Shown piece by piece: positions 29,415-30,843 of a stretch of DNA of 64,000 nucleotides. This stretch comes from Gloeomargarita sp. SKYG116. GTDB taxonomy: Bacteria > Cyanobacteriota > Cyanobacteriia > Gloeomargaritales > Gloeomargaritaceae. A program made the position numbers and the translations under genes. A model generated the notes under the pieces. It was not told the origin of the DNA, did no database searches, and saw nothing but the letters and a program-made list of their open reading frames with translations. The first letter of the stretch is position 1. Each line of letters starts with the position of its first letter. The stretch covers positions 1-64,000 of the forward strand of contig JANWVM010000006.1 in the NCBI GenBank assembly GCA_025056115.1. The letters are read 5' to 3'.

Positions 29415-29441
29415 AAAAAAAGCCCCCTACTCCAGGGAGCC
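29415..29441 (-). terminator. Rho-independent terminator downstream of the 29477-30025 gene
   Basis: Minus strand GGCTCCCTGGAGTAGGGGGCTTTTTTT: GC hairpin followed by a T7 tract. Confidence 0.75.
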
Positions 29442-29476: not shown

Positions 29477-30025
29477 TTAACCCGGACAAACCGGCACATT
29501 GTTGGCGTTCAGTTGAATCCGGCCAGGGTCACCGTTGATTTGGATAGGCACTTCTTCCTTACCCACGAACCGGAACATGGCACCCCGCTGTTTGGCGCAG
29601 CTACCAATGCTAGTGGCCCACTTGCGCAATTGTTCGTTAAACGCCTTTTGATGCGCCGGTACATCATCCAGGTTCTGCACCCCATCCCCCGTATAGTCGC
29701 GGAAAGGAGCAGGCCGGAATTTGTCAGTCACCGGGGAAGCTGAAGTACCTGTCGTCCTCCTAATCCCGATCCGGAAAGGCTCAATACTCCGTTCCAGCGC
29801 AAAAGGATGCTCGTAGTAAGCAGGCTTCGGGAACTGAATCAAGGTGTCAGGCTTGCGCAACCGGAAGGGACCTGTAAACGGCGGCCAAGGTTCCGCTTTG
29901 GCGGCAGGGGTTGTCATCACCGGGGGTTCATACAACCGCGGCGCAGGTTGAGCACTCGCTGGAGCCATCGCCGCTGCCAACACCGTACCTGCGACCGAAA
30001 GAGATAACAATGTTTGGGGACGCAT
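29477..30025 (-). CDS. Secreted hypothetical protein with DYTGDGVQNLDD module
   Basis: Signal peptide MRPQTLLSLSVAGTVLAAAMAPASAQ; VTDKFRPAPFRDYTGDGVQNLDDVPAHQKAFNEQLRKWATSIGSC. Confidence 0.75.
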   Translation of the reverse strand: MRPQTLLSLSVAGTVLAAAMAPASAQPAPRLYEPPVMTTPAAKAEPWPPFTGPFRLRKPDTLIQFPKPAYYEHPFALERSIEPFRIGIRRTTGTSASPVTDKFRPAPFRDYTGDGVQNLDDVPAHQKAFNEQLRKWATSIGSCAKQRGAMFRFVGKEEVPIQINGDPGRIQLNANNVPVCPG

Positions 30026-30164
30026 AACCGCAACTCCTCAACTTAAACAGCTTAATCCACCATTCTCACCACAGCAATTTGCAGTGACGTTGCCCTCATT
30101 TTAACAGCATCTTCTCCCACTGCGGTCAAGATACTCCCAATCTTAACCTCAACATAACCTGGAC

Positions 30165-30380
30165 TTAACGGGTGCCGCTGATCCGACCAGCCCACTGCCG
30201 CAGTTGTTCGTTGTAGTTTTTCTGGTGGGCGGGAATGTCATCCAAATTCTGCACGCCATCACCGGTGTAGTCCCGAAACGGGGGAATTTTGAACTGGTCA
30301 GTGATGGGTGTGCGCGCTTGAGCAAACATTGGTAACACCAACACTCCCCACAAACTCGCAGTCAGCAACCACAAACGCAT
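30165..30380 (-). CDS. Short secreted hypothetical protein with DYTGDGVQNLDD module
   Basis: Signal peptide MRLWLLTASLWGVLVLPMFAQA; ITDQFKIPPFRDYTGDGVQNLDDIPAHQKNYNEQLRQWAGRISGTR, a close match to the neighbouring gene. Confidence 0.7.
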   Translation of the reverse strand: MRLWLLTASLWGVLVLPMFAQARTPITDQFKIPPFRDYTGDGVQNLDDIPAHQKNYNEQLRQWAGRISGTR

Positions 30381-30426: not shown

Positions 30427-30843
30427 TCAACCCTGCATCCAACGGCGAGCGGTCTCCCGTAGCCAGCGGCTGCTTTGCACCAGTAGCGAGGATTCCTGCA
30501 ACGGCGGTAAGACTTCGGTGGTGGGAGTAGTGGGCAATGGGATGTGATCAAGCGCCTGCAGAACCGCCTGTGCACTGGTGTAACGTTCCCAAGGTTGTTC
30601 GCGCACCATCTTATCGAGCACCTGGGCCAAGGTGTCTGGGAGGTCGGAGCAGTGAGCGCGCCAGTCGAAGTGCGGGGTGGGCCACTGGTTGGGAGGCAGG
30701 CCGGTCAGGGCTTGAATGGCAATGATCCCGACAGCATAAAGGTCGCTGCTGAATTGCGGACGACCGGCATACTGTTCGCTGGGGGCATAACCGCGCGTGC
30801 CAACGGCAACTGTTTCTTGCTGGTGGTAACTGCCGCGGCACTG
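30427..30843 (-). pseudogene. Remnant of a Ser/Thr protein kinase (C-lobe only)
   Basis: Frame reads ...RGSYHQQETVAVGTRGYAPSEQYAGRPQFSSDLYAVGIIAIQALTGLPPNQWPTPHFDWRAHCSDLPDTLAQVLDKMVREQPWERYTSAQAVLQAL; in-frame TAA at 30846-30844 and no N-lobe, HRD or DFG before the next gene. Confidence 0.8.

Follow-up and report, generated by a model that had tools for sequence, protein, structure and literature searches.

The window, the whole 64,000-nucleotide stretch of DNA that was analysed, carries two co-oriented open reading frames on its minus strand, 29477-30025 (182 residues) and 30165-30380 (71 residues), both present in the list of open reading frames. Read along that strand, the small gene (30380 to 30165) comes first and is followed, after a gap of 139 bp, by the large gene (30025 to 29477). 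Sec-type signal peptides, read by eye and given here with the cleavage point as a slash, open both proteins (MRPQTLLSLSVAGTVLAAAMAPASA/Q and MRLWLLTASLWGVLVLPMFAQA/R). The coding features, and the hairpin that follows them, are:

30165 to 30380, minus strand: small gene, 71 residues, comprising signal peptide, loop and helix, without the core domain.
30237 to 30272, minus strand: 12-residue loop of the small protein, DYTGDGVQNLDD, residues 37-48, from the sequence and the alignment of loop-bearing relatives.
29477 to 30025, minus strand: large gene, 182 residues, comprising signal peptide, Pro-rich stretch, ITD strand, loop insertion and core domain, from the open reading frame and the family profile search.
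29663 to 29698, minus strand: 12-residue loop of the large protein, DYTGDGVQNLDD, residues 110-121, from the sequence and the contrast in identity between paralogues.
29480 to 29662, minus strand: post-loop helix plus the C-terminal core, which is conserved and contains two invariant cysteines (C143, C180); common to loopless relatives, from alignments.
29421 to 29441, minus strand: terminator-like hairpin 3' of the large gene, a weak feature (3 in the region against 1.4 expected).

The earlier note had described this pair as adjacent secreted proteins with a near-identical block, and indeed a block of 39 residues is common to the two, with 77% identity (E 1.4e-18). The sharing is not confined to two proteins, as had been stated, but involves three copies in the genome (2.37 Mb, 98% complete), since the same block matches a third paralogue of 174 residues, encoded on another contig (G000:C181), with 74% identity (E 8e-17). 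As judged by these E-values, both similarities are well outside chance. The DNA of the block is only 65-67% identical between the copies within the genome and the loop codons differ at synonymous positions, so that conservation is at the protein level and does not stem from a recent DNA duplication. When the large protein is compared with the third paralogue from the same genome, identity is 89-100% in the loop segment but 27-36% before the loop and 41-52% after it. We do not claim gene conversion between the tandem blocks, given that the within-genome DNA identity, although high in some species (0.83-0.87), does not exceed that of same-clade cross comparisons.

A domain profile search places the pair within a family that is present in 67 of 390 cyanobacterial genomes of the class and 36 of 160 genera. 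The window genome itself falls in the Gloeomargaritaceae, and its named relatives are Gloeomargaritales cyanobacterium VI4D9 and Gloeomargaritaceae cyanobacterium C42_A2020_066. Most family members are loopless, and in these a helix of the form W...V..CL starts only a few residues after an ITSNTPITD strand. The block is thus an optional insertion of ~26 residues, consisting of the 12-residue loop and the following predicted helix, and the proposal that this module is the functional unit of the family does not hold, because most relatives dispense with it and it represents a variable insertion in a larger domain. Alignments with and without the loop reveal the invariant positions of the core, namely W, the first C, R, G, L-N-A and the final V-C. 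The presence of two invariant cysteines in exported proteins suggests that they form a disulfide. In addition, the members from family f19 have two extra cysteines, in and after the loop, that perhaps form a second one. Profile searches of Pfam, NCBIfam and PHROGs returned no significant match for either protein or for the core domain, and searches of the PDB by sequence and profile gave subthreshold matches only. The earlier statement that no named family is recognizable is therefore borne out, and neither protein is placed in a well-characterised family of Pfam, NCBIfam or the PDB. No relative was detectable in viral contigs and plasmids. On the basis of these profile searches, the pair represents exported members of a cyanobacterial domain family that is absent from the family libraries searched. 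Loopless relatives from family f16 (L013, L014, L041-L044) contain long Pro/Ser/Thr-rich linkers between the signal peptide and the core domain, which resemble those of surface or wall-spanning proteins.

The loop is found in 15 of the 67 family genomes, comprising eight from the Gloeomargaritaceae, one from family f8 and six from family f19, where members with loci were read as sequences and, for the rest, absence of the loop was judged from the start of the profile match. All three genes (small, large and third) occur in each of the seven genomes of the genus, while only a gene of the third type is found in the sister genus (G007). In a tree of the core computed without the loop columns, sequences of f1 and f8 form one clade (bootstrap 97), and those of f19 fall separately, with a weak bootstrap of 49. 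Given this uncertain position of f19, the tree does not distinguish between a single gain of the loop, two gains, or losses. Loopless relatives from family f34 (L060, L049) keep a helix start, LTADDVPRIRSEY and ITLDDVPRIRAEY, that is similar to the second half of the loop plus helix of the loop-bearing proteins and may be either a degraded loop or its precursor.

The ligand spacing of an EF-hand or dockerin loop, to which attention had been drawn for the window proteins, extends to all loop-bearing members that were read, with D1, T/N3, D5, N/T/D9 and D12. Ligand-type residues are kept at positions 1, 3, 5, 9 and 12 and the others vary, as seen in DYTGDGVQNLDD, DYTGDGTANLDD, DYTRDGKMNLDD, DCNGDNRITLDD, DCNSDNKITFED and DCNGDNRIDLSD, with the loops of f19 being near-canonical (DCNGDNRITLDD). 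There is one loop per protein, and Thr at position 3 of the Gloeomargaritaceae loops lies outside the strict Dx[DN]xDG pattern. An objection had also been raised to position 8, which is indeed the non-hydrophobic Gln in the window proteins; this doubt is eased by the presence of Ala in the sister genus, Met in one other family and Ile in the near-canonical loops of a third. No EF-hand, dockerin or other Pfam model matched significantly in the profile search. In the PDB, most of the profile matches, all of them subthreshold, are to EF-hand or dockerin chains; none is significant alone and several are redundant copies of one protein, and the alignments with dockerin 2y3n and obelin are in register with the loop. 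The Dx[DN]xDG-type motif has evolved repeatedly, and homologues differ in having it (PMC3123361), so that the present family looks like another context for a known calcium motif. Taken together, the retention of ligand-type positions, the weak in-register PDB matches and the precedent for gain and loss of the motif make it likely that the loops bind calcium outside the cytoplasm, one Ca2+ each, and the calcium-loop idea of the earlier note is probably right.

Structure prediction was performed for the window sequences together with those of the named relatives. AlphaFold reached a mean pLDDT of 38.6 for the large protein in its mature form and 65.3 for the small module; the models were based on alignments of only nine and eight sequences, respectively, and are thus too weak for metal placement. 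A helix directly after the loop is predicted in both with low to moderate confidence, and no metal site is present in these low-confidence models. A Foldseek search of the PDB with the small-protein model gave no match.

Alternatively, the loop could be a structural or protein-binding segment, namely a tight turn with an Asp-rich helix cap, that is conserved by contact with a partner rather than as a metal site. Conservation does reach beyond the ligands, since it includes an Arg that precedes the loop and a Pro-x-His-Gln that follows; positions 3 (Thr) and 8 (Gln) are non-canonical, and the loopless f34 relatives retain the similar helix start described above. Against this, the near-canonical f19 loops share with those of the Gloeomargaritaceae only the ligand-type positions, and we regard this reading as unlikely. 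Less likely still is that the proteins serve intracellular carbonate formation in Gloeomargarita, for example as exported calcium buffers. Such a role would fit the restriction of the loop-only protein to this genus and the intracellular Mg-Ca-Sr-Ba carbonates that PMC4085569 describes for Gloeomargarita lithophora; however, the proteins are predicted to be exported whereas the carbonates are intracellular, and loop-bearing relatives are also present in two other families.

The small protein ends shortly after the helix and lacks both core cysteines. Its orthologues, which are 71-83 residues long, were found in all seven genomes of the genus and carry the signal peptide, loop and helix. For the block of the small gene, those between-species comparisons that allowed an estimate of dS yield values of 0.27-2.8, with dN at 0.02-0.16, indicating that the gene is maintained by purifying selection. 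That the 71-residue reading frame is a decaying truncated duplicate without function, as might be supposed from its missing core and its confinement to one genus, is refuted on present evidence by the low dN with high dS and by its occurrence in 7/7 genomes, where it has retained its signal peptide and where its end is conserved, and we consider it extremely improbable. Rather, as read from these alignments, the small protein is a genus-specific derived copy that has kept the signal peptide, loop and helix and lost the core.

Two further elements lie upstream of the large gene:

30142 to 30171, plus strand: PHO-box-like tandem repeat CTTAACCT-caa-CATAACCT-gga-CTTAACGG, matrix score 23, overlapping the stop codon of the small gene and lying upstream of the large gene in the opposite orientation.
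30098 to 30106, minus strand: extended -10-like element TGTTAAAAT upstream of the large gene, conserved as TGnTAnnAT in the intergenic alignment.

A promoter scan identified no consensus sigma-70 pair. The intergenic sequence AGGTTAT-N5-GGTTAA upstream of the large gene occurs without mismatch in each of the seven genomes and is rarely met in the rest of their DNA; in the window, its opposite strand gives the PHO-box-like tandem repeat listed above. The PHO box of SphR consists of at least three 8-bp CTTAACCT-like repeats with a 3-bp linker (PMC1906773), and a matrix built from the table rows of that paper was evaluated against 200 shuffles. Three boxes are present in the window genome and two are conserved in 7/7 genomes. 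The site scores higher than all 200 shuffles in the window genome, G001 and G006, and the three-box score is not clearly above the shuffles in the other four species, where the third box is poor. Scanning the seven genomes with the matrix gave no consistent signal for the small and third genes. Within the genus, the motif is also located near genes that we read from their sequences as encoding a pstB-like ABC ATPase and a pstS-like binding protein, as well as near a CHAD gene and an OprB-type porin, and the pstS-like gene of the window genome has the same reversed arrangement. The motif would place the large gene in the phosphate-limitation (SphR/Pho) regulon, an assignment that is fair and that we make with moderate confidence. 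In several genomes of the genus (L113, L125, L135, L141, L142) the repeat is just upstream of the CHAD-domain gene, which suggests that this possible polyphosphate-binding protein is under phosphate control, and a conserved repeat is found ~110-130 bp upstream of the OprB-type porin in four (L128, L136, L139, L140).

The tandem pair is kept in 7/7 genomes of the genus, but the genomic context of homologues, a check that had been proposed, provided no conserved neighbourhood beyond it, with clustering of the gene neighbourhoods of ~30 loci giving no conserved partner outside the genus. At 30432-30843 (minus strand) the window contains a C-terminal remnant (~145 residues) of a gene encoding a GAF and Ser/Thr kinase protein. 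In G002, G004 and G005 the complete gene lies next to the pair; it is unlikely to be a required partner, since the window retains only this C-terminal part and the G001 and G003 loci gave no detectable copy. In G014, a loop-bearing genome of f8, a GAF-domain protein (L079:4227-5012) with 40% identity to the N-terminal half of the kinase is encoded ~1.1 kb from the family gene, possibly by chance.

As a whole, the locus is probably best explained by exported members of an undescribed family with a calcium-type loop insertion and a loop-only spin-off. The insertion, one EF-hand/dockerin-type loop plus helix of ~26 residues, sits in the core domain in the Gloeomargaritaceae and two other families. 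Each loop would coordinate one Ca2+ via D1, T3, D5, the backbone of residue 7, N9 (perhaps through water) and D12, and the bound Ca2+ would order the stretch that connects the ITD strand to the helix leading to the first cysteine. As EF-hand loops normally work in pairs, a reasonable but weak proposal is that the single loops of the small and large proteins pair with each other and that the loop-only protein thereby modulates its neighbour in response to calcium. A more speculative extension, which we think distinctly unlikely, is a two-part exported calcium device in which the loop-only protein completes or competes with the loop of its phosphate-controlled neighbour, so that Ca2+ outside the cell would be coupled to the supply of phosphorus in Gloeomargarita, a lineage that forms carbonates.

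The findings define a family of exported proteins that is missing from the libraries searched and occurs in about one in six of the cyanobacterial genomes sampled. They also show that a calcium-type loop was gained or lost among the members of this family and later became a small protein of its own. In Gloeomargarita, a close relative of plastids that is studied for its intracellular carbonates, the genes for these exported candidate calcium binders, with their phosphate-type promoter, would be amenable to testing. Calcyanin is a carbonate-associated cyanobacterial protein with glycine-zipper repeats.

Among known systems, the type I dockerin (PF00404) is similar in that a loop is followed by a helix, here a predicted one, like one dockerin repeat, in exported proteins, and in the weak in-register match to 2y3n, but distinct in having two tandem loop-helix repeats rather than one copy. 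That the module is a dockerin-like half docking to a cohesin is rejected as hardly credible, given the single loop, the absence of a Pfam dockerin match and of any cohesin or dockerin domain in the genome (cohesin PF00963 had no match there, and a control genome was positive). The PHO-box-like site shares with the SphR PHO box (PMC1906773) the tandem 8-bp CTTAACCT-like repeats with 3-bp linkers and the occurrence near pst-like genes, but is oriented opposite to the gene here and has only two clear boxes in some species. There is also a likeness to the EF-hand-type or Dx[DN]xDG loop (PMC3123361), with which the family shares ligand spacing at 1, 3, 5, 9 and 12 and a motif that is present or absent between homologues, while a helix after the loop is predicted at low to moderate confidence. 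It differs in the Thr at position 3 and the Gln, Ala or Met at position 8 of the Gloeomargaritaceae and f8 loops, and in carrying one loop per protein within a cyanobacterial domain absent from the libraries searched. What is new is the protein in which a known calcium motif is found, not the kind of system.
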